From assembly GCF_000377765.1 (NCBI RefSeq), contig NZ_KB898663.1, positions 372,001 through 436,000 on the forward strand: a stretch of DNA of 64,000 nt, in the 5' to 3' direction. Of the stretch, positions 20,631-38,385 are shown in pieces. The translations under genes were made by a program, and so were the position numbers. The notes under the pieces were generated by a model. That model was not told where the DNA came from. It was given only the letters and a program-made list of their open reading frames with translations, and made no database searches. Position 1 is the first letter of the stretch, and every line of letters begins with the position of its first letter. Origin of the DNA: Gracilibacillus lacisalsi DSM 19029. GTDB lineage: Bacteria > Bacillota > Bacilli > Bacillales > Amphibacillaceae.

Positions 20631-20662
20631 ATTATACCACACATTTAAGTTATCGTTTACTT
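20631..20662 (-). promoter_or_regulatory. Promoter with LacI-type operator, AKR-CE7-GH1 operon
   Basis: On the minus strand AAGTAAACGATAACTTAAAT (20643-20662) matches the operator upstream of the alpha-galactosidase gene at 15 of its first 16 positions. It is followed by an extended -10 element, TGGTATAAT (TATAAT at 20631-20636). The operator covers the -35 position, as expected for repression. Confidence 0.7.
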
Positions 20663-20713
20663 AAAAGACTCAAAACGTCGATTAGTTATATTATTATATA
20701 ATTGTATGAAAAT

Positions 20714-20727
20714 TGCAAACGTTTTTT
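20714..20727. promoter_or_regulatory. Weak cre-like site upstream of the AKR operon
   Basis: TGCAAACGTTTTTT keeps the left half and central CG of the cre consensus but lacks the right-hand C. It lies about 80 bp upstream of the extended -10 element. Confidence 0.3.
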
Positions 20728-20740
20728 TATGATATTTCCA

Positions 20741-21184
20741 TCACAAATTCTTCTTGATAACGACTCTTTCCTGATTTTCCACATAATTATTTTTTATATA
20801 AAAGGCTTCTGCAGCTCCGCCCTTGGCTGTTAATAGATAAAGACTTTGAATATTTCTTTCCTTTAATTCATTCTCTAAATATTGAAGTAATCTAGATCCA
20901 TAACCTTTGCCTTGGACTTGATTATGAACACATAATTCAGCTATATAAAAAGTTAACCCTTTATCTGATTGTTTACTGTTTCCAGCAATGAACCCGACTA
21001 AATCGTCCTTTTCATATAATAGAAAGCCCAGAAATTTAGGTGTTTTCACTAAATCTACCAGTCTTTCTTTAGCATCTTCAACTGTCCACGTCTCATTCCA
21101 TGGTTCATTGTTAAAAACATTTCTATATAATTCGATACACTGTTCTACCGTATTCATACTCATGGGTACAATTAGTTCCGCCAC
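20741..21184 (-). CDS. GNAT-family N-acetyltransferase
   Basis: A 147-residue GNAT protein with the acetyl-CoA binding motif V..QVQGKGYGSRLLQYLE and a FYIKNNYVE C-terminal segment. I chose the GTG at 21184 as start, because AGGAG lies eight bases upstream; the longer frame starts at a TTG without a site. It probably acetylates a small molecule or a protein N-terminus; the target is unknown. It appears to be a single-gene unit between the SGNH gene terminator and the AKR promoter. Confidence 0.85.
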   Translation of the reverse strand: MAELIVPMSMNTVEQCIELYRNVFNNEPWNETWTVEDAKERLVDLVKTPKFLGFLLYEKDDLVGFIAGNSKQSDKGLTFYIAELCVHNQVQGKGYGSRLLQYLENELKERNIQSLYLLTAKGGAAEAFYIKNNYVENQERVVIKKNL

Positions 21185-21297
21185 TTTAAACACTCCTATC
21201 GATATTACTTCTAGGGTTGATGTTTTCAAGCGTATATGATGTCCAGCATTTTTGCAACATACTGATTGTACTCATCTAATAAATAATACACTAACGC

Positions 21298-21341
21298 AAA
21301 AAAGTAGCCCATTTTGGATATACTCCAAACGGAACTACTTT
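21298..21341 (-). terminator. Intrinsic terminator ending the mannan operon
   Basis: On the minus strand AAAGTAG and CTACTTT form the base and TTTGGA/TCCAAA the top of a hairpin, followed by TTT. It lies just past the stop of the SGNH hydrolase gene, the last gene of the binding protein-permease-GH113-GH2 operon. Confidence 0.8.
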
Positions 21342-21347
21342 CTCTTA

Positions 21348-21965
21348 CTACTCTGTTCGTTTTTCTACCGCTTCGATCCACGTTTTTGCCATCAACATAT
21401 TTCCGGCACTATTCATATGAACACCATCTGTTGTCAGTTCGTATCTGCTATTTTTCGCTAAATACTGGACAAATGCTCTATGTGTAGGGACTAATACGGC
21501 CTGGTATTCATTAGCTAATTGGTTGACGATCTCCACATACTTTTTAAGTAATTGATTTCCTTCTGACTGGAGATTTTCTTCAATAACAGTTGGTTCCATT
21601 AAAATTAATTGACATGATTTTACTTGATCTAACAGCTGACGATAGGTCGCATCAAATACTTCCGGTGATACTTGTTCCATCCCCGGATGATCTAATTGAC
21701 GCCAAACATCATTAATCCCAATCGAGATCGACACAACGTCAGGCGTTAAATCAGTAACATCCTGTTGCCATCGTTGTTTCATATCGATAATCCGATCGCC
21801 ACCAACACCTTTGTTAAATATCTCAAAATTCTTCTCAGGTGCACTTACACGCAAATAATCATGTAGTAGTCTTACATAACCAGTGCCAATTCCTTCTGAA
21901 TCCTCATATCTTCCCCATTCCGTTATACTGTCACCAATAAAAACTATTCGTTTTCCTAGTTCCAT
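21348..21965 (-). CDS. SGNH/GDSL-family esterase
   Basis: A 205-residue SGNH hydrolase with all four blocks: GDSITE (nucleophile Ser), GVGGDRI (Gly), SIGINDVW (Asn), and DGVHMNSAG (Asp/His). There is no signal peptide, so it acts in the cytoplasm. In this operon it is most likely a deacetylase of imported acetylated manno-oligosaccharides, in parallel to the CE7 enzyme encoded 1 kb away. I chose the ATG at 21965, with AAGGAG seven bases upstream; an ATG two codons earlier is too close to that site. Confidence 0.9.
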   Translation of the reverse strand: MELGKRIVFIGDSITEWGRYEDSEGIGTGYVRLLHDYLRVSAPEKNFEIFNKGVGGDRIIDMKQRWQQDVTDLTPDVVSISIGINDVWRQLDHPGMEQVSPEVFDATYRQLLDQVKSCQLILMEPTVIEENLQSEGNQLLKKYVEIVNQLANEYQAVLVPTHRAFVQYLAKNSRYELTTDGVHMNSAGNMLMAKTWIEAVEKRTE

Positions 21966-21976
21966 TACCATTCTCC

Positions 21977-22960
21977 TTACGGTTTACTAACGAGTGTCTT
22001 TTCTTTATTATACCATTTTTTTACAATATACTCTGCTCTTTTACCGTAAATATCAAAATCGAGATCTTTTTTGGCATCTTCTAAAGGATACATTGTAGTT
22101 TTCCAGTCCCACCAGAAGAATCCTGCGAACCACGGTTTATCCCAAAATACTTGAAAGACAGACTCATAAAAGTTTGCCTGTTCATCTTCGTCGAAAGGTA
22201 AATGTGTATGCTCAAAATCCCAAGGCATGGTGGCACAACCTAATGCACTGCGACAACCGATTTCCATGAAAATGATCTGTTTGTTGTATTGTTGAGAAAG
22301 TTTTTCTAGCTTAACACTTATTTGTTCCCACTTTTTCACCATATTTTCTACCGAATCACCAGGCTTGTCTGCTACTGGATAATAAGCACTTGTCCCGATA
22401 AAATCAACGGCATCAAACCATTCGACACCTTCTTCTTTTCCATGATTAGCATTATATATAATCGGTCCATTATACAGACGTCGAACCTGTTCAATCACGA
22501 GTCGCCATCTGTCAACTTGATGTTCTGTGTTTATCATTTCACAGCCAATACAGAACATTTCACATTCAAGCTCTTCTGCTAGTTCTGCATAATGTAATAA
22601 GAAATTAGTGTAAGATTTGAACCATTGATTCCAGTCACTTTCAGCTTCCTCTGGAAAACCAATTCGCGCTCTCCATATACCGTCACGACAATTCACAACC
22701 GGTTTCAAGCAAACTTTCAAACCTAATGATTTGGCCTGTTTTACCGCAAATATGATATCACGATCTGTCATCGTATGGCCGTAATCAAAATGAATATCTG
22801 TGGAATGATACGTATCTTGCAAGGCAAAAAATGATAACGCAATCCATTCACTGCCTGTAGCTTTTAGTTTTGTTAAGGAATCAACAGCAGCTTCTGTCTG
22901 ATAAGCCCCTCTTGTCGTATTCCAACCATATGTCATACCTTTAATAAAAATTTCCTGCAT
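21977..22960 (-). CDS. GH113 beta-mannanase/mannosidase
   Basis: A 327-residue TIM-barrel protein of the GH113 type (the family of Alicyclobacillus ManA). Features are KGMTYGWNTTRGAY near the start, acid/base E141 in FCIGCEM, and nucleophile E233 in IIFMEIGCRS. It lacks a signal peptide and so cleaves short manno-oligosaccharides inside the cell. The start at 22960 uses GAGG that overlaps the stop of the beta-mannosidase gene. It is a paralogue of the protein encoded at 25474-26403; both share GIWRA, GCEM and W-rich C-terminal motifs. Confidence 0.92.
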   Translation of the reverse strand: MQEIFIKGMTYGWNTTRGAYQTEAAVDSLTKLKATGSEWIALSFFALQDTYHSTDIHFDYGHTMTDRDIIFAVKQAKSLGLKVCLKPVVNCRDGIWRARIGFPEEAESDWNQWFKSYTNFLLHYAELAEELECEMFCIGCEMINTEHQVDRWRLVIEQVRRLYNGPIIYNANHGKEEGVEWFDAVDFIGTSAYYPVADKPGDSVENMVKKWEQISVKLEKLSQQYNKQIIFMEIGCRSALGCATMPWDFEHTHLPFDEDEQANFYESVFQVFWDKPWFAGFFWWDWKTTMYPLEDAKKDLDFDIYGKRAEYIVKKWYNKEKTLVSKP

Positions 22961-22971
22961 GTTACTCATCC

Positions 22972-25416
22972 TCAATGTGTAATATGGTAAACACTTCTTA
23001 TGCTGAGTGTTCTTTCTAATGCAGCCTTTGTAACTGACTTTGGAAGCCTGTTTTTAGCTATTGTCACGTTTTTCGGCTCATCTGGTGATAAATCAAAGAA
23101 ATTATCTGATAATACGGCGTCCTGTTCTAATTGTATTTCTACGTATTTCGTGTACGCTTTTGCACTTACTTGAATAGTAAATTGCTGATTCCCTTCCTCC
23201 ACTTGGAAGTTCAATTGTGGATTTAAGAAGTCAAAATGCTTTGGCTTAGTAAAAATAACAGTCGTATTACTATAAGCCTCACCATCTATATAGAGAGTTG
23301 CTTCTAAATAAGTTTGATATTTCGTATTTTCATTAATCTCATCCGAAAAATCTAAGTATTGACAAGATTTCGCCGATAAACCATCGACCTTCACTTCTTT
23401 CCAACCTTCCCGAATAACTCGTGATTGATTATCACGTAGTTTCCATTCAATACGGCCAACAATAGCTTCTAAATGATCATTAGTAACATAGATGGAAGCA
23501 TCTTTTTCCCCTTCTTCTATCGATAGAAGGATAGGATCATAGAATTTTTTAGCGTAATAATGTAAAGCTTTCCAACGACCGTAATAATCAACACTGGACC
23601 ATGAAGCTACCGGCCAACAATCATTTAATTGCCAATATAGTGATCCCATACATCTGCCTAAATTTCGTCTCCAATGCTCGACACCGTATTTAATTGCTTC
23701 CGCTTGTAACAGTTGGGAAGTGTAAAGCAGTGCATCAAAGTTTTTCGGATAAAGGAAGTTTTCAGATAAATAATAAAGAATCATACCATTTGCAGCATCA
23801 TTTTTCTGATGTTGTTCCATTACTCTTGAGAAAATATTGCGATCTTCCGGTTTGGTGAAACTTTCTATTGTTTTCATTGATGGGAATGACTGAAAACCAA
23901 ATTCAGAACAAAAACGGAAATAATAGTTTCGATAGTCTGTAAATGGTTTCTGACCATGCCACACTTCCCAATAGTGAACATCTCCAATATTCGGATCACG
24001 CGGTTTATCAAAACCTCCACCTGATGATGGTGACGAGGACCAATAAAAGGTTTGCGGATCATATTCCGCAACAATATCAGGTAAAATGATTTCGAATAAT
24101 TTGATATAATCACGGCGCCAGTCCGCTCTCTTCGGCCAACCCCAATGCTCCATGGCTTCCTCGACTTCATTATTTCCGCACCATATTCCTAGACAAGCAT
24201 GATGACGAATCCGCTTGACTTGATCGATTGCCTCTTGCCGCACAGTTTGTTCAAACTGTTCTGTTAAACGATAAACACTACACGCAAACATAAAATCCTG
24301 CCAAACAATAATGCCGTACCTGTCACATAAATCATAGAAATAATCTTCTGGGTAATGTCCCCCACCCCAGACACGAATCATGTTAAAGTTGGCAGCCACT
24401 GAATCTTGAATCAAACGTTCTGTTCGCTCTTTCGATGTTCGTGGCAATAAATTATCTTCTGGAATATAGTTAGCACCTTTCATAAAAATCGGATAACCAT
24501 TTATAATAAACGTAAATGATTTTCCCCACTCATCTGGTTCATGTTTTACTTCAATCGTTCTTAGTCCAATACTTTTTGTCAGGCTATCAATTTGCTCGCC
24601 ATCCTTGCTGAGTGAAACCTCCAACGTATATAACGATTGCTCACCATATCCGGCAGGCCACCATAGTTGTGGGTCATCCATTTCAAATAGAAAGGAATCT
24701 TTTCCAACATCCTTACTTACCACTTGACCAGCAGGATCTTTTAACAATACGGTTGTCTCACAGCTGTCCATTTGATTTTCTACTGTTACATCCACCCTCA
24801 CCTGTACTTGATTATTATTGTGAATTTGATGAATATGAATATCCTCTAATCGATTGTCGTTCCATGCTTTTAGTTCGACATCTCGCCACAAACCTAAATC
24901 GGGTATTTTCGGACCCCAGTCCCAGCCATACATACTGTGTGCTTTACGTAAATGCTGATACCCATCTACAGCATGATCAACACCAGCTAAGCGATTCTTT
25001 CTTTGTTTTTCCTCAATATATTTTAACGGGGAGAATAGCGTGACGCGGATCTCATTTTCCCCCTCAACTAACAGTTCTTTCACATTCCATTCATAAATAC
25101 GGTGCATATTTTCTGTAGTTGCTAATTTTTGTCCATTTATTGTAATTTCTGCAATGGTATCGATGCCATGAAAAGTAATCGTAACCTTCTCATGTGCAAA
25201 TAATGTCTGATCTACTTCAAATCTTTTATAAAATAGATAATCCTTATTCGCCACTTCTAATGCCTGCTCTTCATTATCACGGTAAAAAGGGTCCGCTATT
25301 TCATGCGCGTCTAATAAAGTATTCATTACAGAAGCAGGCAATCTGACATGATATTCTTTCTCTGTTTGTAAATCCTTCATTGTCCAATTGTCGTTAAAAT
25401 TAACCTTTAGCATCAT
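22972..25416 (-). CDS. GH2 beta-mannosidase
   Basis: An 814-residue intracellular GH2 enzyme with the beta-mannosidase layout: N-terminal jelly roll (1-190), Ig-like domain, TIM barrel (about 300-600), and C-terminal beta domains. The acid/base is E417 in WCGNNEVEE and the nucleophile E505 in CSEFGFQS. The mannose-recognising WDWGP motif (165-169) and RVWGGG are present. It releases mannose from the non-reducing ends of manno-oligosaccharides. The gene sits between two GH113 genes in one operon. Two ATGs open the frame; either could be used. Confidence 0.96.
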   Translation of the reverse strand: MMLKVNFNDNWTMKDLQTEKEYHVRLPASVMNTLLDAHEIADPFYRDNEEQALEVANKDYLFYKRFEVDQTLFAHEKVTITFHGIDTIAEITINGQKLATTENMHRIYEWNVKELLVEGENEIRVTLFSPLKYIEEKQRKNRLAGVDHAVDGYQHLRKAHSMYGWDWGPKIPDLGLWRDVELKAWNDNRLEDIHIHQIHNNNQVQVRVDVTVENQMDSCETTVLLKDPAGQVVSKDVGKDSFLFEMDDPQLWWPAGYGEQSLYTLEVSLSKDGEQIDSLTKSIGLRTIEVKHEPDEWGKSFTFIINGYPIFMKGANYIPEDNLLPRTSKERTERLIQDSVAANFNMIRVWGGGHYPEDYFYDLCDRYGIIVWQDFMFACSVYRLTEQFEQTVRQEAIDQVKRIRHHACLGIWCGNNEVEEAMEHWGWPKRADWRRDYIKLFEIILPDIVAEYDPQTFYWSSSPSSGGGFDKPRDPNIGDVHYWEVWHGQKPFTDYRNYYFRFCSEFGFQSFPSMKTIESFTKPEDRNIFSRVMEQHQKNDAANGMILYYLSENFLYPKNFDALLYTSQLLQAEAIKYGVEHWRRNLGRCMGSLYWQLNDCWPVASWSSVDYYGRWKALHYYAKKFYDPILLSIEEGEKDASIYVTNDHLEAIVGRIEWKLRDNQSRVIREGWKEVKVDGLSAKSCQYLDFSDEINENTKYQTYLEATLYIDGEAYSNTTVIFTKPKHFDFLNPQLNFQVEEGNQQFTIQVSAKAYTKYVEIQLEQDAVLSDNFFDLSPDEPKNVTIAKNRLPKSVTKAALERTLSIRSVYHITH

Positions 25417-25436
25417 TACACCACCCTATTTATAGA

Positions 25437-25467
25437 AGAAGCCGTACTATCTGATAGCACGACTTCT
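25437..25467 (-). terminator. Intra-operon hairpin between the GH113 and GH2 genes
   Basis: In the minus-strand RNA a 15-bp stem (AGAAGTCGTGCTATC against GATAGTACGGCTTCT) closes with two G:U pairs. Those pairs would be mismatches in the other strand, so the structure is selected in the sense RNA. The T tail is short. It may be an attenuating terminator or an mRNA stabiliser. Confidence 0.6.
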
Positions 25468-25473
25468 GTTGTT

Positions 25474-26403
25474 TTACATCGATTGATAGAAGTTTTTTAT
25501 CACCTTTTCTGCCGCTTTTCCATAAACGGCATAGTCATCGTCCTGCTCCGCTTGAGATTCTGGATAAAGAATTGCTTTCCAGTCCCAAAGACCGAAACCT
25601 TTCACCCAATCACGTTTTGCTGTTTTTTCAAACATATCTTGATAAAAGGCTTTTTGCTCCTCTTGGTTAATCGCACCTGCTAGTCCCCAATCATTAGGGA
25701 TTTGTGCGGAACCGGATCTGCTCGGGCAACCTGCCTCCGCAAAGAAAAACGGTTTATTAAAAGGTTTGATAATCTGCTCTATTCGATCTAACTGATTATC
25801 CCAGTCCCCTAACGGATAATAGCCACTGGAAGAAATAACATCTACTTCATCCCACCATGTTACATTCGCTTCCTGGTATTTATCTGTGTTATAGGTAATC
25901 AAACCGGAATATACTTCACGTACATCTCTGACTAAGTTGCGCCATTCTTTTTCACGACGCTCGGTCTGCACCATTTCACAGCCAACAATAAACATTTCAG
26001 CTTCTTTTTCTTCTGCTATTTTGGCATAATGCAGTTGATAATCTGTATAACTTTTAAACCAATCGCTCCATTTCGGTTCACATGGTACATCAATGTCAAA
26101 GAAATTAATATGGGCCCGCCAAATCCCATCAGCAGGATTGACGGTAGGCTTGATCATAACTTTTAAACCTATGCTTCGTGCATAATCAACCATATCTTTT
26201 AGTTCTTCATCTGTTACCATATGTTCTCCTTGATAGATCACATCGGTAGAAAAGGCTGTTTCTTGTGTGGCAGCTAAAGCAAAAATAACATAATTACTTG
26301 CTGTTCGTTCTTTCATTAATCGTAAAGATTGTTTTGCTTCTGGTTTGGTAAAATCTCCACGTTTCGCTCCCCAGCCAAACGTGAAACCTTTAATATACTC
26401 CAT
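25474..26403 (-). CDS. GH113 beta-mannanase/mannosidase (second paralogue)
   Basis: A 309-residue GH113 protein with acid/base E143 in MFIVGCEM and nucleophile E223 in FFFAEAGCPSRSG. It has no signal peptide. It lies 11 bp after the second permease gene, with ACGGAGG before its ATG. Its divergence from the other GH113 of the operon (for example a shorter N-terminus and different loop after GIWRA) suggests a different chain-length or glucose-containing substrate preference. Whether it acts endo or from the reducing end cannot be told by reading. Confidence 0.92.
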   Translation of the reverse strand: MEYIKGFTFGWGAKRGDFTKPEAKQSLRLMKERTASNYVIFALAATQETAFSTDVIYQGEHMVTDEELKDMVDYARSIGLKVMIKPTVNPADGIWRAHINFFDIDVPCEPKWSDWFKSYTDYQLHYAKIAEEKEAEMFIVGCEMVQTERREKEWRNLVRDVREVYSGLITYNTDKYQEANVTWWDEVDVISSSGYYPLGDWDNQLDRIEQIIKPFNKPFFFAEAGCPSRSGSAQIPNDWGLAGAINQEEQKAFYQDMFEKTAKRDWVKGFGLWDWKAILYPESQAEQDDDYAVYGKAAEKVIKNFYQSM

Positions 26404-26414
26404 AAATACCTCCG

Positions 26415-27245
26415 TTATTTTACTGATCCTGATGTTAAGCCATTATAGATATGTTTTTGCAAGGAAATGAATGCAAGAAATGTTGGAATAATGGCAAGCA
26501 TGATCCCAGCACAGATAACTTCCCACTCTGACCCGTATGGCCCCTGGAATTTAAACAGTGCTGTTGAAATAACATGCAACTCTGTCTTCGGCATGTATAA
26601 GAATGGTGTATAGAAATCGTTATATACGAAAATACCTCTTACGATAATCACCGTAACAATTGCAGGTTTTAGTAACGGTAAAATGATTTTCGTATAAATG
26701 GTAAAATAAGATGCCCCATCCAGCATCGCTGATTCGTCTAGTGATACCGAGATTGAATTCATAAATTGCAAGAATATATAGATAGCGATAATGTCCGTAC
26801 CTAAGTAAAGTATGATCGCTGCCCACATCGTATTAAATAAACCTAGTGCATTTACGATTTGGAATGTTGCTACTTGTGTTGTTACCCCTGGGATTAGTGT
26901 AGCTAGTAAGAATGCACCCAAAATTAATTTACTTCCTCTGAACTTAAAACGATTCAACACAAAGGCAACCATTGATCCGATAAGTGTGGTACCAATAATC
27001 GAGATCAAGAGTATAATAACGGTATTCTTAAAACCGTTTAACATGTTTCCTTCTACGAAGGCACGTTTAAAGTTTTCGAAATTCGTCCAGTCACTCGGAG
27101 GAGTAAGTGGACCAGTTGTTGTATATTCTGCACCTGTCTTAAAAGAGGCAAAAAATACAACTAAGATAGGTAATATTGCAGCAATTACTCCTAAAATTAA
27201 TGACCCATACTTTAAAATGCTTCCCGCCGCATATTTCGCTTTCAT
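26415..27245 (-). CDS. CUT1 sugar ABC transporter permease (MalG type)
   Basis: A 276-residue protein with about six membrane helices and the ATPase-docking loop SVSLDESAMLDGASYFTIYTKIILPLLKPA. It starts one base before the end region of the partner permease gene, whose 3' end supplies the GGAGGAGG site. It forms the mannan-oligosaccharide importer with that partner and the lipoprotein. No ATPase gene lies nearby. Confidence 0.95.
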   Translation of the reverse strand: MKAKYAAGSILKYGSLILGVIAAILPILVVFFASFKTGAEYTTTGPLTPPSDWTNFENFKRAFVEGNMLNGFKNTVIILLISIIGTTLIGSMVAFVLNRFKFRGSKLILGAFLLATLIPGVTTQVATFQIVNALGLFNTMWAAIILYLGTDIIAIYIFLQFMNSISVSLDESAMLDGASYFTIYTKIILPLLKPAIVTVIIVRGIFVYNDFYTPFLYMPKTELHVISTALFKFQGPYGSEWEVICAGIMLAIIPTFLAFISLQKHIYNGLTSGSVK

Positions 27246-27246
27246 C

Positions 27247-28119
27247 TTAATCCTCCTCCGAAAAGAATCGTTTTTGTAGGACAGTTACAATAATGACGAT
27301 AAACAAGAGAATAACTGCCATCGCTGATGCAAGACCAATTTTTCCATATTTAAACGCTGTGTCTACTGTTTGAATGACAAATGTCGCACTTCCATTTGCT
27401 CCACCAGTCATGATATATGGAATTTCAAATGCACTTAAAGCACCACTGATTGCTAAAACTAGATTTAAAGAAATAATGATACGGATACTTGGCATAATAA
27501 TGTAGCGGAATTGTTGCCAGCGATTCGCACCATCAATTTCAGCTGCTTCATAAATTTCTCCAGAGATAGATGAGATCGCACCTAAGAAAATAATGAAGTT
27601 AAAGCCCATGTATCGCCAGATCGATGTACCAGCTAAAGATATATTGATAATATCCGGATTACCTAGCCAATGCATGGCTAAGTCCCCTAGTCCAATCATC
27701 TGCAAGACCGTATCTAAGGCACCATCTGGTCTGAAGAAAAATAAAAACATAAACCCGATTGCTACCCCATTAAGAAGATAAGGGAAGAAAATAACCCCTT
27801 TAAAAAAGTTTTTAAATCGAACTCTAAAGCTTAATATCGTTGCAAAGTACAATGCAATCGCCATTTGTACGAATGTTGCAAAGAAATAGTACAAACTGAC
27901 ACCAAATACTCGGAAATACTCTGGATCTGTAAATACGGTAATGTAATTTTCCAAGCCTACAAATTCTTTGTCACTATAGCCATTCCAGTCAGTCACACTG
28001 TACCAGAACATATTGGCAACAGGTAAAAAAGAAAAAGTAGCTAGTAATGTAAGTGGTACAATTAAAAAGGAAACAATAATAATGATTCGTTGCGTTCTAT
28101 AGGATAATTTGGAAAACAT
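27247..28119 (-). CDS. CUT1 sugar ABC transporter permease (MalF type)
   Basis: A 290-residue protein with about six membrane helices and the docking loop EIYEAAEIDGANRWQQFRYI. I chose the ATG at 28119 (MFSKLSYRTQ), which gives the usual short basic N-terminus; AGGAGG lies 12 bases upstream, slightly far. The longest frame adds 23 unlikely residues. A perfect hairpin separates it from the binding-protein gene, probably lowering permease relative to binding-protein synthesis. Confidence 0.94.
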   Translation of the reverse strand: MFSKLSYRTQRIIIIVSFLIVPLTLLATFSFLPVANMFWYSVTDWNGYSDKEFVGLENYITVFTDPEYFRVFGVSLYYFFATFVQMAIALYFATILSFRVRFKNFFKGVIFFPYLLNGVAIGFMFLFFFRPDGALDTVLQMIGLGDLAMHWLGNPDIINISLAGTSIWRYMGFNFIIFLGAISSISGEIYEAAEIDGANRWQQFRYIIMPSIRIIISLNLVLAISGALSAFEIPYIMTGGANGSATFVIQTVDTAFKYGKIGLASAMAVILLFIVIIVTVLQKRFFSEED

Positions 28120-28253
28120 CTGATTGTCGCACCTCCTGGTAAAAACTAAATGAAACTGGAAGCAACTTGCATACTTCCAACATTTCATTTAATTTTCACT
28201 TTTCTCTCTATTAATCTATTATGGCAGTAGAAATAGATTGATGTTGAAAAGGA

Positions 28254-28284
28254 ACACTATTCACCACTATTGGGTGAATAGTGT
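28254..28284 (-). terminator. Perfect 12-bp hairpin between binding-protein and permease genes
   Basis: ACACTATTCACC and GGTGAATAGTGT form a perfect stem with a seven-base loop 13 bp past the binding-protein stop codon. It lacks a T run, so it is more likely a processing or stabilising hairpin, or a weak terminator that sets the protein ratio. Confidence 0.65.
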
Positions 28285-28297
28285 ACACTTTCACCTA

Positions 28298-29656: not shown

Positions 29657-29680
29657 GTTTTTTGACCCCTTTCTCGAATT

Positions 29681-29924: not shown

Positions 29925-29942
29925 TATAATCTTTCTCTAATC

Positions 29943-30539
29943 CTATTTTTCTAAAAACGGAGGCGAAAATTTGATAAAGCTCGTTGTGATACCACAACCA
30001 TATATACAAGGAGCTAGAGCGATAAATGCAACAAGGTTCCAAGTAAATAAAAAGGACAAGATCGCTACGATAAACAATATATATATGGATCTTAACGGAT
30101 ATTTAATGGAAGAAACAAAAGCTAACGCCAATAATTTTTTCCACGCTTTGATACCCTTAGTCAGATAATACAATATAAAAGTATAGTTAATCACAAATAG
30201 AATCATAAAGTAGACAATTACTATCACCAACGCAAGACTAAACGAATGGTCAGATCTGTTCGCAAAAAACAGGGCCGTATAACTTAAAATCACAAACATC
30301 ACACTTAAGAAAGAAGCAAAATAATACGATTGATAGCTTTGATAATTTTCTTTAAACAATAATCCGATATCTTCTGGATTTTCATGGATTAGAAATTGCT
30401 CACTCGTCTTCAGCAATGATGCAGTTGCCGGTATAAAACTGTAAATAACGACTCCTTTTAGCAGGTAAAGCCAATAATAAAAACTGATTAAAAAAAGTTT
30501 ATAACAAAACTGAAATACTTTTTGAATGGAACCACTCAT
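29943..30539 (-). CDS. DUF624 (YesL-like) membrane protein
   Basis: A 198-residue protein with five or so hydrophobic helices. The N-terminal segment (FCYKLFLISFYYWLYLLKGV, then YSFIPATASLL) matches the DUF624 pattern seen also in the protein at 8686-9354, though the two are quite diverged. The role of the family is unknown; its members accompany sugar importers. It stands alone between the LacI gene terminator region and its own terminator. No operator of the LacI type was seen before it. Confidence 0.8.
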   Translation of the reverse strand: MSGSIQKVFQFCYKLFLISFYYWLYLLKGVVIYSFIPATASLLKTSEQFLIHENPEDIGLLFKENYQSYQSYYFASFLSVMFVILSYTALFFANRSDHSFSLALVIVIVYFMILFVINYTFILYYLTKGIKAWKKLLALAFVSSIKYPLRSIYILFIVAILSFLFTWNLVAFIALAPCIYGCGITTSFIKFSPPFLEK

Positions 30540-30613
30540 CCCTCATCATCCTTTGTCTACATTTCAACAGAAAAACCATTAACCACACTAGATCCCACGA
30601 GCATTTATGGAAC

Positions 30614-30790
30614 GGACATTTAGTGCCTTATTTGAATGGAAATCAGCTATTTTTCGATGTTAGCGGACATTGAATCCCTTATTTGATTCATTCCGGCCAC
30701 CATTAGCACTATTTTCGATGAATAGCGGAATAGATGTCCACTGATAGCCTAAAAAGGCCACTTTTGTCACAAATAACGGAACGAATGTCC
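30614..30790. repeat. Degenerate intergenic repeat with GGACAT/ATGTCC motifs
   Basis: Two units begin GGACATT and continue CCTTATTTGA after five variable bases (30614 and 30665), each followed by a TTTTCGATG segment. Two later units carry the motif in palindromic form (GGAATAGATGTCC at 30727-30739 and GGAACGAATGTCC at 30778-30790). It fills most of the 340-bp gap between the LacI and DUF624 genes. No reading frame explains it. Confidence 0.55.
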
Positions 30791-30841
30791 GCACTTAGTC
30801 CCCTAGCTTTAGGGGTAACACCCTCAAACTCTCTGCCTTTG

Positions 30842-30877
30842 CAAACAAAACCAAGGCAGTCACCTTGGTTTTGTTTG
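30842..30877 (-). terminator. Strong intrinsic terminator after the LacI gene
   Basis: CAAACAAAACCAAGG and CCTTGGTTTTGTTTG form a perfect 15-bp stem with a six-base loop immediately past the stop codon. The A/T ends give poly-U on either strand. Confidence 0.9.
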
Positions 30878-30878
30878 T

Positions 30879-31886
30879 TTATTTTATCGCTTTTACTGAA
30901 TCGCGGTAAATAATTTTACCTTTTACTGCGACTCTTCCGAATTTCACTTCCGGATTATCCATTTTATCGCATATAAATTTAACCGTGTTTTTAGCCATTT
31001 CTTCGATATCTACTTCTACGGTTGTTAGGTGAGGCGTTGTCAGTGTGGCATAGATATCATTATCGAATCCGACCACCGAGCAATCTTCTGGTACCCGATA
31101 CCCTTCTTTATTTAACCTTTCGATAAGTAAATGTGCTACTTGATCACAGTTACAAACGAAAGCGGTTGGCATTTGGTCGGGTAAATCCATTTCGATAAAA
31201 GCTCCCCGCTCATCCCGATCACTAATGACATATTCCTGTTTCAAATGAATTTTATGCTCTAATAATGACTTATAATATCCAAGAAAACGGTCCTGAATAC
31301 TACTTGTAGAAAAAAGATTGCCGACATAGGCAACTTCTTTGTGCCCCTGTTGAATCAATGAATTCGTAATTTCATAAGCTCCATAAAAGTTATCGGTAAT
31401 GACTGCATCTACATTATCATTCTCGTCATAGAAATCGAGGAAAACTAAAGGCATTTCCACACTTTGCATTAATTCTATATACTCTTTGCTAGGTTGTCCA
31501 AGCATAATGAAGCCATCTACTCTGCGCTCGTGATAAATGCGCGGCAACTTTAATTGATCTTCGTCTTCATTAGGTAAAATATGAATAATTCCGTAATAAC
31601 CACGGTCTTCTAAAATCTGTGCAATCGCTTGATATACTTTTAAATAAAAAGATTGTGTCATTCCGGTGTATCGTTCAGGGATAATAACACACACATTATA
31701 TGACTTACCATCTTTCATCGATTTCGCCATCGTATTGTAACGATATCCCATTTTATCCGCTAACGTTTTAATCTTTTCTTTTAATTCTTCACTGACGCCT
31801 TCTTTGTCGTTCAGTGCTTTAGAAACCGTGACACTGCTCACATTTAATTTTTCAGCAATATCTTTCATCGTGACATTCGACTTCAT
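30879..31886 (-). CDS. LacI-family repressor, probable regulator of the mannan locus
   Basis: A 335-residue protein with the LacI helix-turn-helix (TMKDIAEKLNVSSVTVSKAL, near 6-25), hinge helix region, and a periplasmic-binding-like effector domain (from about 60; GFIMLGQPS, VGFDNDIYATLTTP). I chose the ATG at 31886 behind GGGGTGA; a GTG three codons upstream is possible. The effector is probably a manno-oligosaccharide. Operator-like sequences with the half-site TAACTTA lie before its own gene and before four other transcription units, which all encode mannan or galactoside functions. Confidence 0.94.
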   Translation of the reverse strand: MKSNVTMKDIAEKLNVSSVTVSKALNDKEGVSEELKEKIKTLADKMGYRYNTMAKSMKDGKSYNVCVIIPERYTGMTQSFYLKVYQAIAQILEDRGYYGIIHILPNEDEDQLKLPRIYHERRVDGFIMLGQPSKEYIELMQSVEMPLVFLDFYDENDNVDAVITDNFYGAYEITNSLIQQGHKEVAYVGNLFSTSSIQDRFLGYYKSLLEHKIHLKQEYVISDRDERGAFIEMDLPDQMPTAFVCNCDQVAHLLIERLNKEGYRVPEDCSVVGFDNDIYATLTTPHLTTVEVDIEEMAKNTVKFICDKMDNPEVKFGRVAVKGKIIYRDSVKAIK

Positions 31887-31944
31887 TTTGTTCACCCCAT
31901 ACTCTAACTTCCCATTTCGTCTATCATAACATTTTTAAAGAAAA

Positions 31945-31970
31945 ATTACTTAATAATTTAACTTAATTCG
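31945..31970. promoter_or_regulatory. LacI-type operator upstream of the lacI-like gene
   Basis: The plus strand holds ATTACTTAATAATTTAAC then TTAATTCG, with two copies of ACTTAAT. It shares the half-site TTAACTTAA with the operators of the epimerase and alpha-galactosidase genes. It lies about 60-85 bp before the start codon, which suggests autoregulation. A TATGAT -10 candidate lies between it and the gene. Confidence 0.5.
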
Positions 31971-32000
31971 TGTTTATTTTACCCTAATCGACAAGAAGAG

Positions 32001-32029
32001 AAAAGGGTGAACCAGGATGTCACCCTTTT
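32001..32029 (-). terminator. Intrinsic terminator after the GH130 gene
   Basis: AAAAGGGTGA and TCACCCTTTT form a perfect 10-bp stem with a nine-base loop that contains the last bases of the gene; the minus-strand RNA ends in UUUUCUC. Confidence 0.85.
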
Positions 32030-33195
32030 AGTAATGCTTCATTCTGTTCGATTAACGATTTACGTTGTTCTGCATTTTCTAGAGACCGATACGGATCTTC
32101 AGGTGTATGGAACGTGTAATCTACTAATTGGTCTACAGTTGTTTTAGCCACATGAATTCTCGTATCACTAGATGCATAGTAAACAAATACTTCATTTTCT
32201 TCATTAACAACTGCACCATTACAGAAAATAACATTAGACACATCACCTGTACGCTCGTCATCGTATGGTGCAATGAAATGTCCACCCGGTAATGCAATGA
32301 GTTTCGTAGGATCTTCTAAACTCGTAGCAAAAGTATAGAGAACATAACGCAAGCCGGCCGCAGTGTTACGAACACCGTGAGCAATATGAATCCAACCTTT
32401 ATCTGTTTTAATCGGCGCAGGCCCTTGTCCGTTTTTGACTTCATAAATCGTATGATACTTCTTGCCGTGAATTACTTGTTCATCTTGAATAATTGGGTTT
32501 GTAATATCTTCTGTTAATCCGAATGCAATTCCTCCGCCCGAGCCAGTTGAAATAAAACCGTCTTGCGGTCGAGTATAGAAGGCGTATTGTCCATCAACAA
32601 ATTCAGGATGTAATACGACATTTCGTTGTTGAGGTGATGGCGTCTTGATATTCGGCAAACGTTCCCAGTTCTTGAGATCATTCGTACGAACAAGACCTGC
32701 TTGTGCTACTGCACTGGATGTGTCAAATTCACCTGCATCCGCATCCTTGCTCTCCGAACAATAAATACCATAAATCCAGCCATCTTCATGCTTCACTAAT
32801 CGCATGTCGTACATATTAGTTTCTTCTTGATCAATATCATCCCAAACTAGTGGAGTATCAATAAATCGGAATTGATCGACACCATTGTCACTTACTGCTA
32901 AAGCAAAAATTGATTTACGATCCAACCCTTCTAACCTCACTACCATATAATATTTCCCTTCGTGATAGATCGCACCAGGATTAAACGTCGCATTAACACC
33001 TAAACGTTCCATAAAGAACGGATTCGTTTCCTTATTCAAATCAAATCGCCAATGGAGTGGAACATGATGTCTCGTTATGGCCGGATATTGATATTTCGTA
33101 TAAATACCATTATAAAATTGCTTGTTTTCTGGATTTTCACGTTGAATTAATCGTTCTTGTTCCTCCAAAAGCTGATAGTATTTTTCATGAATCAT
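32020..33195 (-). CDS. GH130 4-O-beta-mannosyl-glucose (manno-oligosaccharide) phosphorylase
   Basis: A 391-residue five-bladed propeller protein of GH130. It has [13 protein letters not shown], the NMYDMRLV strand, the [10 protein letters not shown] segment and [14 protein letters not shown], which resemble the subfamily 1 enzymes that phosphorolyse mannosyl-beta-1,4-glucose to mannose 1-phosphate and glucose. The true ATG at 33195 overlaps the epimerase stop by four bases (ATGA). Epimerase plus GH130 form the known mannobiose pathway: mannobiose is first converted to mannosyl-glucose, then phosphorolysed. No signal peptide. Confidence 0.93.
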
Positions 33196-34367
33196 GACTG
33201 CTTCACCCTTTCGATAAATTCTAAACAAAATCTACTATTATGGTAAGATGTCTTCCACGGTTCTCCGATTGCTCTTTCTGTTGGCTTGCCATCAGGCTCT
33301 ATCGACCAATACCATTCTCCATTTTCACGATTATCGACTATATGTTTTTTAATATAGTCCCAAAGATTCTCCATTAATTGTTGAAATTTCGGATCTTGTG
33401 TATGTTCAAATGCATTTAAATAGCCGACCATCGCTTCTGCTTGTACCCACCAAATTCTCGTTTCATCATAATGGTCATCAACCTGTTCGTTGATTAATGA
33501 ACCATCTGCCTGCATCGCATATGCAGCAATATTATACGCAATATCGAGCACCATTTGATCAAACCTTTTATCATTTATCCCTATTGTTTTAATGGTTTCA
33601 TCCATCAACCAGCTCGCTTCAATATCATGGCCGAATGATTTCATATTGACTAATGAATTCCATTGCTTATCGAAAAAAACGCCTAAAAAATTGGTATCTT
33701 GGTTATAAATCTTCTGATAATGCACTTCTAACAAATCTAGTAATCTTTGTTTTAATGCATCCGTAGGGTTTGCTTTATACAAATTGGTATACGCTTCCAA
33801 TACGTGAATATGTGTATTCATTGTAATTTCTGCAACGACACCATTTTCACTTAACATTTCGTTTGATACCGGATTCCAACATTGATCGAACTCTTCACCA
33901 TAAGCACGATTTTGCTGGTCATAACCCTTCTCTTCAATTAAATGATAGATTTCATTTGCCAAAGCTAATGCTTCCTCTAATTTCGTGACTCGATAATATT
34001 CACTTAATGCATAAATCGCAAATGATTGGGCGTATACATGCTTTCTTTTATCTTTCGGTTGCCCTTGATAATCCACTAACCAATAGATGCCTAGATGTTC
34101 CTGATCATATAGTTTGTCACGAAGAAAGTGATAAAGGTGATGAGCATGCTCTAAGTATTCTTCTTTCCCAGTAACTCGATATGCAGCTGAAAAAGTCCAG
34201 AGGAATCTTGCTGTCGCAATCCCTCCCTTATCTGCTTGCTTATTAATTTCTAAATGATAGTCTACTTCCCCATAAAAACCTCCATGTTGCTCATCCTTCA
34301 ACTGCATCCAAAACGGGAGGATTTTCTGTTCTAAATGTTGTTGAATTTCGTCTGTCAGCTTTTTCAT
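33192..34367 (-). CDS. Cellobiose 2-epimerase (mannobiose to mannosyl-glucose)
   Basis: A 391-residue (alpha/alpha)6-barrel of the N-acylglucosamine/cellobiose 2-epimerase family. Recognisable parts are [18 protein letters not shown], the [19 protein letters not shown] segment with catalytic-type His, [23 protein letters not shown], and [14 protein letters not shown]. It inverts C2 of the reducing-end sugar of beta-1,4 disaccharides. Coupled translation with the GH130 phosphorylase gene makes mannobiose the likely substrate. It has its own LacI-controlled promoter. Confidence 0.94.
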
Positions 34368-34393
34368 AAATGAAACCCCCTCTTTATGTTTAT

Positions 34394-34440
34394 CGTTAAC
34401 TTAATAAATTAATAATAATTAACTTAATGGCGTTTGTCAA
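34394..34440 (-). promoter_or_regulatory. Promoter with two LacI-type operator copies, epimerase-GH130 operon
   Basis: On the minus strand TTGACA (34435-34440), 17 bp and TATTAT (34412-34417) form a near-consensus promoter. ATTAACTTAATGG (34418-34430, plus strand) fills the spacer, and CGTTAACTTAATAA (34394-34407) lies just downstream of the -10. Both carry TTAACTTAAT. Confidence 0.8.
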
Positions 34441-34479
34441 TTACTTACTACTTAAATTGAACTTCGATTCAACTCATTC

Positions 34480-34517
34480 AAAAAGCCAGCAAAAGAACAA
34501 AATCTTTCACCGGCTTT
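34480..34517 (-). terminator. Intrinsic terminator after the chemoreceptor gene
   Basis: On the minus strand AAAGCCGG and GCTGGCTTT pair (one G:U) around a loop of about 20 bases, followed by TTG. It lies four bases past the stop codon. Confidence 0.75.
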
Positions 34518-34520
34518 GAT

Positions 34521-36308
34521 TTATACTTTAAATTTTGCAAAGGTTTCTTCTAATTCATGCGCCATAGATGCTAATTCTTGCGAGGAAGCAAGTAATTGTT
34601 GCATAGCTGCATTTTGTTGTTCTGAACCTGCCGCAATTTGCTCGATACTTTCTGCTGACTTTTCCGAGATTTCTTGAATATTGGTAGTTGCCGCACTTAC
34701 TTGATCTATTTTGTCATTTGTTATGTCAATCGTTTGACTAGCTTGCTGATTATGGTTATTTAACATTTGAATCGAGCCTGATAAGTGGTCAAATACCGTA
34801 CCTACCTTTTTGACTTTTTCTACTCCTTGATTAACCGATTCTGTACTCATTTCCATCACTTCTACTGCTTGATGAGTATCTTCAATCGAAGTAGCAATTA
34901 ATGACTGAATATTCTCCGTGGCATCTGCCGTTTGCTCGGCAAGTTTACGAACTTCATCTGCAACAACAGCAAATCCTTTGCCATGTTCACCGGCTCTGGC
35001 AGCCTCTATCGTCGCATTAAGTGCTAATAAATTGGTTTGCGACGAAATAGAATGAATCATATCTACAATACTGCTAATCTTAGAAGAATGCTCACTTAAT
35101 GAGTTAATAATGGTTGCTATTTCGTCCACTTGCCTTTTAACCATATCCATCTGCTCTACCGTATCTGTTACATCATGGGTTCCATTCTCAATCTCCTGTT
35201 TCGTTTCCTTACTTAAGCGAATCGCTTCTTGCATCGTTGTGGTAACTTCCGCCCAAGATTTTTTCATCTCTTCCATTATCGCTGTTGATTTTTGAACGGT
35301 TTGAACTTGCTCTTCACTACCATTCGCTATATCTACCATCGTAGTAGTGATCTGAGTATTTACATCCGTTGTTTCTTCCGCATTTTCTCTTAAGGCTTTC
35401 GACATATTCGTTACTGTTTCGGTTGTTTCTAATAATCGGACAATCGAACGTTGCAAATGATCAGCCATTTGATTCATTGCATTTTGGATAACTGCAATTT
35501 CATCTTTACCTTCCACTTCGATTCGTTCAACCGTTAAATCACCATCTCCTAATCGTTTCGCAAACAACGCCAAGCTTGCAAACTTGGTGGACATTCTTTT
35601 ATTTACAACTACTAGAATAACAATAGAACTAACTAAAACAAATACAACAAGTGCAACCACTACAATCATGGTGATGGTGGACTGTTTTTGTATATTGTCT
35701 TGTAAGGCACTTCGTTCAGATAACATCAATTCCTTTAACTCCATTAGTTCATCGATCGTATAATTGCGGAGTGTTGTTGTTTTTTTATGTAAATCAGTCT
35801 GAACAAAAATGTCTACTCTTTCTCCGTTGTCTCGATATTCGGCAGTTTTGGGTATGATTTCATCAAAAAATAATTGATCCATTTGGTCATTATAATCTAA
35901 CACTTTCTCATATATTTTTTGTTGTTCATTTGTTTCTAATTCTGCTTCAATCATTTCCACAGAAGTTAAAAATGCATCTCCTTCGGCCTGATAATCTTCA
36001 ACCGTGGTGGTTGGATGCTGCTCCGTTAAAATATCAGCAATAATAATCGATTTTTGCTTAAAGATCGAAGCTGCCTCCACTATTTCTATCGATGCATCAC
36101 TTTTTTCATCTACTGCTCGAGATTCTTTTAGCACTCCATTCATCGATAAAATCGTAATCAATAAGGAGAGGACAAATAACACTAAAACACCAGTAAACAA
36201 TAAGCCATATTTTTGTCCCACTTTACGATCTGTCAGAAAATGACGATTCCAACGTATTTTTTTTAGATTCCATTTCGGCAAAGATATCTTTTTCCATCTT
36301 CTTTTCAT
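34521..36308 (-). CDS. Methyl-accepting chemotaxis protein
   Basis: A 595-residue chemoreceptor. A basic N-terminus is followed by a transmembrane helix (36-56), an extracellular helical region (57-210, four-helix-bundle type), a second helix (211-236), HAMP, and a cytoplasmic signalling domain with the hairpin tip [20 protein letters not shown]. It has no CheW-binding truncation. Its position inside the mannan locus, between the epimerase promoter and the ABC exporter gene, suggests it might sense a related sugar, but it has its own terminator and no clear LacI operator. The ligand is unknown. Confidence 0.94.
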
Positions 36309-36341
36309 ATGAATCCCCTTTCATCTTATAAAGAAAACCTA

Positions 36342-36395
36342 CCATCAGCGAGATTTCATTATTCTACTCACTGATGGTTAGCAACACTTATCAGG
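36342..36395. repeat. Dispersed hairpin repeat, copy A
   Basis: CCATCAG (36342-36348) pairs with CTGATGG (36371-36377), extended inside by GAG/CTC. The conserved tail GGTTAGCAACACTTATCAGG follows. The same tail, with two or three changes, occurs at 54928, 55047 and 59529. It lies between the ABC exporter stop codon and the chemoreceptor start. Confidence 0.6.
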
Positions 36396-36418
36396 TCTTC
36401 ACAGGCAACACAGATGCG

Positions 36419-38221
36419 TCAGGAAATCTGAACTGCTTCTGAAGCCATTTTTATTTGATAGAATTCCCCTTGTTTCTCTACTAACTCGTCATACGTTCCC
36501 ATTTCTACGCATTGGCCATTTTTCATCACGACGATACGGTCTGCATCTCGGATTGTTGATAAACGATGTGCTACGATAAAGGTTGTTTTCCCTTTAATTA
36601 ATTCCTGCATGGCATCCTGAATTAATTTTTCCGAGACGTTATCTAATGCAGAAGTTGCTTCATCCAAAATGACCATTTGTGGTTTACGAATAAATGCTCT
36701 AGCAATGGCAATCCGTTGCCTTTGGCCACCTGACATCCGATCACCGTGTTCCCCGATTTTTGTTTCCAAACCATCTGGTAATTCATCGATGATATCTTGC
36801 AAATTAGCCATTTGAACAGCTTGTTGTACCTCTTCTTCTGTAACTTCAGCTAAACCATACGTGATATTTTCACGGATCGATCCCGAGAAAAGAATCGTGT
36901 TTTGTGGCACTACCGCGATCTTCTTTCGGAAGCTTCTCATACTTAAATCATCCATCACGACGTCATCTATTAAGATCCTTCCATTACTAGGCCGATAAAA
37001 CCCGGTTACTAGATTCAAAATAGTAGATTTACCTGCTCCCGACTCCCCAACGAAAGCAATCGTTTCTCCAGGTTTTACTTCAAGCTGAAAGTCTGTTAAT
37101 ACATGTTTATCTGAATCGCGATATTTGAAATAAACGTGGTCAAAGTCTACCTTACCGTCTAATTGCTTTAGCTTCGTCTTCCCCTGGTATTCCTGTGTTT
37201 CCTTCGCAAAAAGGATTTCTGAGATCGAATGAACGGACTCAAAGCCTTTTGCTAATTGAGGATAAATGTTAATCACGCCAGATATAGACATTAAAATTTG
37301 CGTGAAATATGTCTGGTATAACACGACATCTCCAATCGGTATTTGTCCTTGATAAGCAAGGTAAACAGTAAAAAGTAAACATAAAACTTGAAACAGTTGA
37401 AATGCTACCCAGTTACTCGCTCCAAAGAAAGCCTCCGTAATATCCAAACGATAACCTTTGCCACGGACATGATGTAATAAAGAATCTACTTTATTAATCT
37501 CTACTTTTTCTAATCCATGCGCTCGTGTTACTGGGATCATCTCTACTGTTTCCGCTACCTGACCAGACATTTCTTCTACTTGTTCCCGGAATTCCCTGTT
37601 TCGTTTCGTTAGCTTCCCACGGAAAAAATAAACAATTAAAATCGAAATCGGTATCGCCACCAAAAAGAAGGATGTTACGGTCCAACTTCTATTCGCCGTT
37701 ACTGCAATTGCCACAATCACATTCATAAATGCCGGCAAGACACCCATCATAGTTTGCTTGGACATAATCTCGATCATTTCAACGTCACGCAGCACTTTTG
37801 CCTGTAACTTACCAGACCTTAATTCACTGTGAAAAGAAATGGAGAGATGTTGTAATTTTCGAATTAACGTACTTCTCAAGCCAGCTTCTACGTGACGAAT
37901 CGCCTTACTCATAAAACTGATATGCAAAATTTGACTCGGCAAATTTTGAATAATAACAATGGTTAATACAATAATATTCATCCATAAATAACGAACGTCA
38001 TAACTACTTGGATCAGATGCAAAATTGATTAGGTTTGCCGTTACAATCGGCAGAATCCAAACCGGTGAATGCTTTAACAAAAAGAAAATAAATGAGACAA
38101 ATAATTTCAGATAATGGCCTCGGTACATGACATGTAACGTTCGAAACAGTCGTCCTTTTATATCTTGTTGTTCTTCAAATCGCTTTTCAAAGTCTAAGGA
38201 AATACCATTTTTGCTAGACAC
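36419..38221 (-). CDS. ABC exporter half-transporter (MsbA/BmrA type)
   Basis: A 600-residue fusion of a six-helix transmembrane domain (about 35-325) and an ATPase domain: Walker A GESGAGKST (near 393), signature MSGGQRQR (near 496, with M for the usual L), and Walker B MVILDEATSALD. Such proteins work as dimers and export lipids, peptides or drugs. It starts with GTG after AGGAGG. The promoter faces that of the alpha-galactosidase gene and has a perfect operator palindrome, so it appears to belong to the mannan regulon. Substrate unknown. Confidence 0.93.
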   Translation of the reverse strand: MSSKNGISLDFEKRFEEQQDIKGRLFRTLHVMYRGHYLKLFVSFIFFLLKHSPVWILPIVTANLINFASDPSSYDVRYLWMNIIVLTIVIIQNLPSQILHISFMSKAIRHVEAGLRSTLIRKLQHLSISFHSELRSGKLQAKVLRDVEMIEIMSKQTMMGVLPAFMNVIVAIAVTANRSWTVTSFFLVAIPISILIVYFFRGKLTKRNREFREQVEEMSGQVAETVEMIPVTRAHGLEKVEINKVDSLLHHVRGKGYRLDITEAFFGASNWVAFQLFQVLCLLFTVYLAYQGQIPIGDVVLYQTYFTQILMSISGVINIYPQLAKGFESVHSISEILFAKETQEYQGKTKLKQLDGKVDFDHVYFKYRDSDKHVLTDFQLEVKPGETIAFVGESGAGKSTILNLVTGFYRPSNGRILIDDVVMDDLSMRSFRKKIAVVPQNTILFSGSIRENITYGLAEVTEEEVQQAVQMANLQDIIDELPDGLETKIGEHGDRMSGGQRQRIAIARAFIRKPQMVILDEATSALDNVSEKLIQDAMQELIKGKTTFIVAHRLSTIRDADRIVVMKNGQCVEMGTYDELVEKQGEFYQIKMASEAVQIS

Positions 38222-38252
38222 ATAATCCCTCCTATATATTTATATCGGATCA

Positions 38253-38303
38253 TAACTTAATCCATTAAGTAATATATTAAAACTTTTTGCTTTTAATTGT
38301 CTA
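38253..38303 (-). promoter_or_regulatory. Promoter and LacI-type operator of the ABC exporter gene
   Basis: On the minus strand TAGACA (38298-38303), 18 bp and TAATAT (38274-38279) form the promoter. Directly downstream lies the perfect palindrome ACTTAAT-CC-ATTAAGT (38255-38270), built from the TAACTTAA half-site of the other operators. Confidence 0.7.
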
Positions 38304-38331
38304 GATATTTATCTTATTCTACTATTCTACT

Positions 38332-38385
38332 TTGACAATAACCTGCGAATTTAATATATTATAATAAGTAAACGTTAACTTACTT
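38332..38385 (+). promoter_or_regulatory. Promoter and LacI-type operator of the alpha-galactosidase gene
   Basis: TTGACA (38332-38337), 17 bp and TATATT (38355-38360) are followed by the operator AAGTAAACGTTAACTTACTT (38366-38385), with arms AAGTAA/TTACTT. The operator covers the expected transcription start. GGGAGG precedes the ATG. Confidence 0.85.

Follow-up and report, generated by a model that had tools for sequence, protein, structure and literature searches.

In Bacillus sp. N16-5, the mannan cluster manR-K carries a LacI-family gene, manR, and is highly transcribed on galactomannan only; neither mannose nor galactose has this effect, and the two cluster genes that were tested are repressed by glucose (PMC3542313, PMC4792470). 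We analyzed a beta-mannan cluster, with a LacI-family gene of its own, in a 64,000-nucleotide stretch of the 4.41 Mb genome of a salt-loving Gracilibacillus (G000:C2:372001-436000; the whole stretch is called the window, and other genomes are cited by similar handles). Like the N16-5 cluster, it combines a LacI-family gene with the binding protein and permeases of an ATP-binding cassette (ABC) transporter, mannanases, an alpha-galactosidase, a CE7 esterase and an epimerase. This likeness is judged from cluster content alone, manR being a sequence annotation, and the parts of the N16-5 accounts available to us describe galactomannan induction without an operator or other binding site.

For mannose and mannosides, the available part of the survey by Ravcheev et al. 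(2014; RegPrecise, PMC4052901) distinguishes five groups within the LacI family, ManR being an example; according to this survey, autoregulation is usual, but not obligatory, for local LacI regulators. The sites reported here resemble those local regulons in having an even, CG-centred palindrome near the start codon of sugar catabolic targets. Mannanase genes in Firmicutes are also controlled by GmuR in B. subtilis and GlyR2 in C. thermocellum; in the part of that account available to us, GlyR2 is likewise a LacI-family protein and responds to mannobiose, but its confirmed activity is on one mannanase gene, whereas GmuR differs in working with a phosphotransferase system (PMC10766802). A search of the literature, covering the top-ranked papers for each query and with RegPrecise and paper supplements outside its scope, found no publication giving the operator described below.

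We consider it highly probable, from sequence comparison, that the LacI-family gene of the window encodes a local ManR-type repressor of the beta-mannan genes, acting at four operators and released by an inducer, with catabolite repression by CcpA superimposed. A dimer of this repressor would bind TTAASTWAWCGWTAACTTA over or beside the -10 element of four promoters and block RNA polymerase, and a mannan-derived oligosaccharide, imported by the ABC transporter that is itself under repressor control, would release it; CcpA, at catabolite-responsive elements (cre sites) in the binding-protein and aldo/keto reductase (AKR) promoters, would add repression by glucose. Such a system, ManR-type local repression combined with catabolite repression, is of a known kind and amounts to ordinary sugar-gene control; the motif is well supported, and it supplies the repressor of a GH113/GH130-type mannan pathway with a predicted operator that holds up in several families of the order.

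Predicted operators and their promoters

The CG-centred palindrome TTAASTWAWCGWTAACTTA is found at four promoters of the window, those of the AKR-CE7-GH1, binding protein-GH113-GH2 and epimerase-GH130 operons and of the alpha-galactosidase (GH36) gene (Table 1). The four 20-bp sites, each before a sugar catabolic operon, start at -67, -46, -37 and -45 from the start codons, and their even symmetry about a central CG is as expected of a LacI-family local regulon. A first-pass annotation of the same DNA had placed six related operators here; we could uphold those at 20643, 29681, 34394 and 38366, and the other two, before the lacI gene (31945) and an ABC exporter gene (38255), are taken up below. 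The 20-mer given in that annotation, at up to three mismatches, matches the window twice (at 38366 and 20643) against a chance mean of 0.01. Its half-site TAACTTA is not enriched in the window (19 occurrences against 14.75 expected, with 16 of 100 shuffles reaching 19), and we rejected it as evidence. The signal resides in the palindrome.

At the binding-protein promoter, a tandem arrangement had been proposed and was indeed seen, as an operator with a second half-site 11 bp from it. Of 26 orthologous binding-protein promoters, 16 have half-sites on the same strand at a distance of 11 bp (one mismatch allowed), compared with about one in shuffles; offsets of 6, 12, 16, 17, 19, 22 and 28 are raised too, partly through the inner symmetry of a single operator. 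At the epimerase promoter, where two copies had been claimed, one is a predicted operator (34385-34404) and the other, near 34420, is a lone half-site. In the binding-protein promoter, half-sites recur at 11 bp through 29680-29730, and farther upstream lies a weaker predicted operator that the first-pass annotation did not have. Second upstream sites, with differing words, are also present in G014, G012, G009, G016, G011 and G002, at distances of 146 to 300 bp. Looping between the main site and the one at 29860-29879 is possible, though the spacing varies among relatives.

Promoter-like matches as such are no commoner than chance would have them (44, with 47.6 in shuffles). Five matches of at least 10/12 fall in 28000-41000; two of these are within genes, and the remaining three are the epimerase, GH36 and binding-protein promoters. 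Each of these three has consensus-like -35 and -10 elements, with the operator placed after the -10 or overlapping it. This is the geometry of a repressor, and it speaks against the idea that the local LacI protein is an activator of these promoters, or acts both ways, which we hold to be very improbable. What speaks for activation is the AKR promoter, which has an extended -10, its operator upstream of the -10, and no visible -35.

Under the repressor reading, the regulon would comprise about 13 genes in four operator-bearing units, as judged from the layout: AKR-CE7-GH1; binding protein-permeases-GH113-GH2-GH113-GDSL; epimerase-GH130; and GH36. Gaps within units are 20 bp or less, save for gaps of 57 and 109 bp in the binding-protein unit. 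The earlier proposal of at least 14 genes in six units thus kept its local regulon and lost two of its units, the exporter being a possible member only.

Genome scans and conservation among relatives

We scanned the genome with a sequence model, R1, made from 43 CG-centred sites out of 54 listed words; since only CG-centred words were listed for the alignment, it is no test of the central CG. With the best 150 of 5423 first-look candidates scored, the four best places in the 4.41 Mb are the AKR, binding-protein, GH36 and epimerase operators (E 0.0014 to 0.20), three of which were in the training set of R1 and one of which, the epimerase site, was not. The next-best place elsewhere in this genome has an E of 0.69. 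Five genomes of the genus without an ortholog of the LacI protein at E 1e-60 (G001, G006, G008, G013 and G015; G004, a sixth such genome, was left out) gave a best E of 0.22. R1 matches outside the cluster, in the scans that took in the relatives, lie inside open reading frames (ORFs) in G009:C22, G012 and G000:C4 and between ORFs in G000:C20, G013 and G006; the G009:C22 match (E 0.13) outranks that genome's own epimerase site.

In 22 of 159 family genomes (up to 13 first-look candidates scored per genome) the LacI protein has an ortholog with an E of 1e-70 or below, and the protein occurs in close relatives including G. suaedae, G. orientalis, G. dipsosauri, G. ureilyticus and G. oryzae. The exact 19-mer of the operator was found in nine of the 159 genomes, all of them among the 22 with the ortholog and none among the other 137, and all 12 of its places are in mannan clusters (reversed control, one place). 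The exact 16-mer occurred at 21 places in 16 genomes (12 with the ortholog, four without), of which 14 are intergenic, at promoters of mannan-cluster genes, and seven are inside unrelated ORFs; one of the cluster places, in G010, is on a separate contig that also carries GH36 and the exporter.

In relatives, too, the palindrome precedes the binding-protein, GH36 and AKR genes. Cluster regions of up to 40 kb were taken from 20 of the 21 other genomes with an ortholog (G007, with a partial match at a contig end, was excluded), and a matrix was built on 22 distinct sites that these promoter types provided in 11 near genomes, nine of Gracilibacillus and two of other genera; a twelfth near genome, G003, contributed no training site. 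Among the epimerase promoters, which were held out, the operator was found in 18 of 19 genomes (p <0.007); in G005 the top match is the shared GH36 operator, and the promoter's own site scores 17.4. Nine more distant family genomes, also held out, have it before the binding-protein gene in 7/7 cases and before GH36 in 6/7. Inner genes mostly show no more than chance scores upstream, the exceptions at p <0.05 being GH2 of G003 and G119, CE7 of G020, the methyl-accepting chemotaxis protein of G031 and GH113 of G040. In G003, which has no binding-protein gene in the region taken, the operator precedes GH2, so that the site follows the operon.

The pattern extends to the order. Of 397 genomes drawn, 19 had a LacI match at E 1e-100, and all 14 of these not previously included were taken. 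They gave 38 matrix matches (score at least 15), at least one per genome, of which 36 are intergenic and 35 lie no more than 250 bp from an ORF start, in DNA that is 85% coding; column-permuted matrices average 1.3 matches, and at most 12. Most of these matches precede homologues of cluster genes, and the sole match in G513 could not be tied to one. Corresponding figures are 52 matches, 50 intergenic, in the near group, which includes the training sites (permuted control 0.4), and 28 matches, 27 intergenic, in the distant family genomes (permuted control 0.65).

Several results weigh against the repressor reading. Looser forms of the motif show little or no excess: the exact 16-mer gave 26 match rows over the 159 genomes compared with 21 for the reversed control, at one mismatch in 17 genomes there were 45 + 49 rows against 45 + 48, and within this genome the 16-mer AAGTTAACGTTAACTT at up to three mismatches matched 51 times against 109 for its reverse. 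The scan that was to reveal any random density put the cluster promoters on top; with the looser forms at control density, the argument depends on the longer motif and the positions of the sites. The AKR upstream regions of G126 and G020, where AKR is an inner gene, have no site (0/2), and neither do the epimerase-like and GH36 promoters of G061. GH26 genes (19, in 15 of 27 genomes searched) have the exact 16-mer upstream in two cases, G039 and G040; two mismatches are seen in G031, G038 and one gene of G061, and the rest have three mismatches or no match, some starts being uncertain. Before lacI itself, the window has no supported operator (matrix -0.4; p 0.22), a difference from the usual autoregulation of local regulons in the available part of the RegPrecise survey (PMC4052901). 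Finally, the co-occurrence of repressor gene and sites is partly trivial, because both belong to one cluster.

Given that the genome scan, the co-occurrence of 19-mer and ortholog, and the held-out promoters and genomes nevertheless agree, they support the earlier proposal of one local regulon, predicted to be under the local LacI protein. The motif lets regulon membership be predicted, though the GH26 sites of relatives are mostly absent or weak (2/19 exact). In G039 (L065) and G040 (L046), the exact operator has on one side a GH26 gene, signal-like at its start, and on the other side genes that we take to encode an ROK kinase and a mannose-6-phosphate isomerase. In the clusters of G014 (L049) and G009 (L051), an operator-like site centred on TG rather than CG precedes the genes of a second ABC transporter, which is accompanied by what is presumably a two-component system. 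We also inspected near matches outside the cluster and rejected them: in this genome five of six were inside ORFs and one was intergenic (L092), and in relatives all four were inside ORFs.

The predicted repressor, its paralogs and cre sites

The protein has the two domains of its family, a helix-turn-helix (LacI PF00356, 46.3 bits, cut-off 27) and a periplasmic-binding-protein-like sensor domain (Peripla_BP_3 PF13377, 115.1 bits, above cut-off). Its recognition helix, VSSVT[VI]SKALND, is near-invariant in the 35 orthologs read, with VTSVT in G525 and G488 and VSNVT in G538. On the strength of this conservation, the co-occurrence and the position within the cluster, the predicted operators very likely belong to the neighbouring LacI-family gene. 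In all 35 orthologs read, Met (A[KR]SM) occupies a position of the hinge helix at which LacI and CcpA have Leu.

Among solved sequences, 1zvv and 1rzr (glucose-resistance amylase regulator) come closest, and we take this regulator to be CcpA. CcpA and its cre site share with the system described here the LacI family and a CG-centred palindrome, but CcpA has another recognition helix (L149) and operator, and it acts globally. Since a central CG is usual in LacI-family operators, the sites might be those of CcpA, or of another LacI paralog, and the local gene a bystander. The GH36 operator is just two mismatches from cre, and LacI-domain genes above the family cut-off number 22 in this genome, the local one included. 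Yet the helix word SSVTVSK is in none of the 16 readable paralogs among the other 21 (of the five left unread, four have no readable helix and one is a spurious frame), the 19-mer is missing from the 137 genomes without an ortholog match, although CcpA is expected in nearly all family genomes, and separate cre sites adjoin the operators at two promoters. We therefore hold a CcpA or paralog origin of the sites to be very improbable.

These cre sites, which the first-pass annotation did not have, are at the binding-protein and AKR promoters, where they are also common among orthologous regions (Table 1); at up to one mismatch, cre is found at 2/21 GH36, 1/29 epimerase and 0/35 lacI promoters, so that action of CcpA would be expected for the first two only. 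Across the whole window there are 12 cre-like matches at this threshold against 5.3 expected, a count reached by 3 of 100 shuffles. The local repressor site and the cre site would thus be combined in one promoter.

Table 1. Genes, promoters, predicted operators and cre-like sites of the mannan cluster, in window coordinates
Feature	Position	Strand	Basis or score
AKR, CE7 esterase and GH1 genes (transcription order)	17269-20597	-	Pfam; gaps 18 and 20 bp
cre-like site TGAAACCGGTATCC, directly after AKR promoter -10	20618-20631	-	1 mismatch to cre; at most 1 mismatch in 5/8 AKR upstream regions
AKR-CE7-GH1 predicted operator, TTAAGTAAACGATAACTTAA	20645-20664	-	Matrix 27.3 (in training); genome's best model match (in training)
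Binding protein, two permeases, GH113, GH2, GH113, GDSL esterase (7 genes)	21348-29656	-	Pfam, spacing
Main predicted operator, binding-protein operon, TTAACTTAACGTTAACTTAA, directly 3' of -10	29683-29702	-	Matrix 26.7 (in training); genome rank 2 (in training)
Binding-protein promoter TTGACT-17-TATTAT	29713-29741	-	Promoter scan
cre-like site AGCAAGCGTTTTCA in binding-protein promoter spacer	29722-29735	-	At most 1 mismatch to cre in 23/26 orthologous promoters; shuffles average 3.2 mismatches
Weaker upstream predicted operator TTAATTTAGCGTTAAAGTTA	29860-29879	+	Matrix 16.0; 177 bp from main binding-protein operator
Predicted LacI-family repressor (ManR-type), 338 aa, recognition helix VSSVTVSKALND	30879-31895	-	Pfam, orthologs
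Epimerase and GH130 phosphorylase genes	32020-34367	-	Pfam
Epimerase-GH130 predicted operator, TTAAGTTAACGATAAACATA	34385-34404	-	Matrix 15.2, p 0.002, held out; genome rank 4, outside model training set
Epimerase promoter TTGACA-17-TATTAT, half-site AAGTTA in spacer	34412-34440	-	Promoter scan
ABC exporter (half-transporter), at most a possible regulon member	36419-38221	-	Pfam ABC_membrane and ABC_tran
Palindrome TTACTTAATGGATTAAGTTA at exporter promoter	38253-38272	-	Conserved; different motif from operator; below score 15
GH36 promoter TTGACA-17-TATATT	38332-38360	+	Promoter scan
GH36 predicted operator, ATAAGTAAACGTTAACTTAC, directly 3' of -10	38364-38383	+	Matrix 26.0 (in training); genome rank 3 (in training)
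GH36 alpha-galactosidase	38409-40637	+	Pfam Melibiase, GH36 N and C domains

Sites at the lacI and exporter promoters, and neighbouring features

Membership of the lacI gene in its own regulon, also part of the first-pass annotation, is not supported here; the operator-like words of its promoter in the window are direct repeats. Among the lacI promoters of 21 genomes, two reach p <0.01 and eight p <0.05, and G525 and G488 have a strong operator before lacI. On these grounds, autoregulation may exist in other species, and it is unsupported in this one.

The exporter promoter shares its intergenic region with the GH36 operator. The perfect palindrome claimed there is real, with 7-bp arms (ACTTAAT/ATTAAGT), placed after a -10, and conserved: of 12 regions upstream of the exporter, 8 carry its consensus without a mismatch, that of G010 among them, and the exact palindrome is in 7 of 17 genus genomes, one copy each. 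It is nonetheless a different motif, with GG at the centre, two more bases between the TTAA cores than in the operators, a matrix score below 15, and a half-site only under R1 (4.2 bits, E 8.4), so that its identity with the operator is not supported. It may be a variant operator or the site of another protein. A similar place, with one mismatch and a CG centre, precedes a sensor-kinase-like gene in G005, where a nearby exporter is only 33% identical.

Could all six sites still be of one type, bound by a repressor that tolerates a second half-site, CGWTTAAGT, at the exporter palindrome and the lacI promoter? The halves of the palindrome read TTAAGT outward, and exact TTAAGT half-sites are in 7 of 84 distinct operator words; the conservation of the palindrome and the lacI operators of some relatives point the same way. 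R1, on the other hand, gives the exporter and lacI sites about 4 bits each (E 8 to 9), the lacI site too scores below 15 with the matrix, and the centre and spacing of the one and the direct repeats of the other do not fit. We judge a single type unlikely, if worth keeping in view. Slightly more doubtful is the fuller notion that the repressor reads both half-site forms (CGWTAACTT and CGWTTAAGT) and also helically phased half-site arrays. If so, the same protein could occupy the GG-centred palindrome of the exporter and the auxiliary site 177 bp upstream as well as the canonical operators, and control across the one cluster would be graded. The phased array and the exporter palindrome are parts that specialists might follow.

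Pfam matches identify the cluster genes as GH1, CE7 (AXE1), AKR, a GDSL esterase, two GH113 and a GH2 mannosidase, along with a solute-binding protein, two permeases, LacI, GH130, an epimerase, a methyl-accepting chemotaxis protein, the ABC exporter and GH36. The gene at 29943-30539, which had no Pfam match, we take, unconfirmed, to be DUF624. The genome has no GH26 gene at E 1e-10, and no Rfam family reaches its gathering threshold in 16000-42000. A terminator-like hairpin (28254-28284) between the binding-protein and first permease genes possibly raises the level of binding protein relative to the rest. Between GH130 and lacI, an inverted repeat (AAAAGGGTGA...TCACCCTTTT, 32001-32029), not listed by our terminator scan, which allowed loops of up to 8, is a likely terminator, and as such would cut lacI off from the epimerase operon. 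A chemotaxis receptor gene (34521-36308) belongs to the mannan cluster by position but, in this genome, has no operator, and a homologue is present in the cluster region of G014, G012, G119 and G031.

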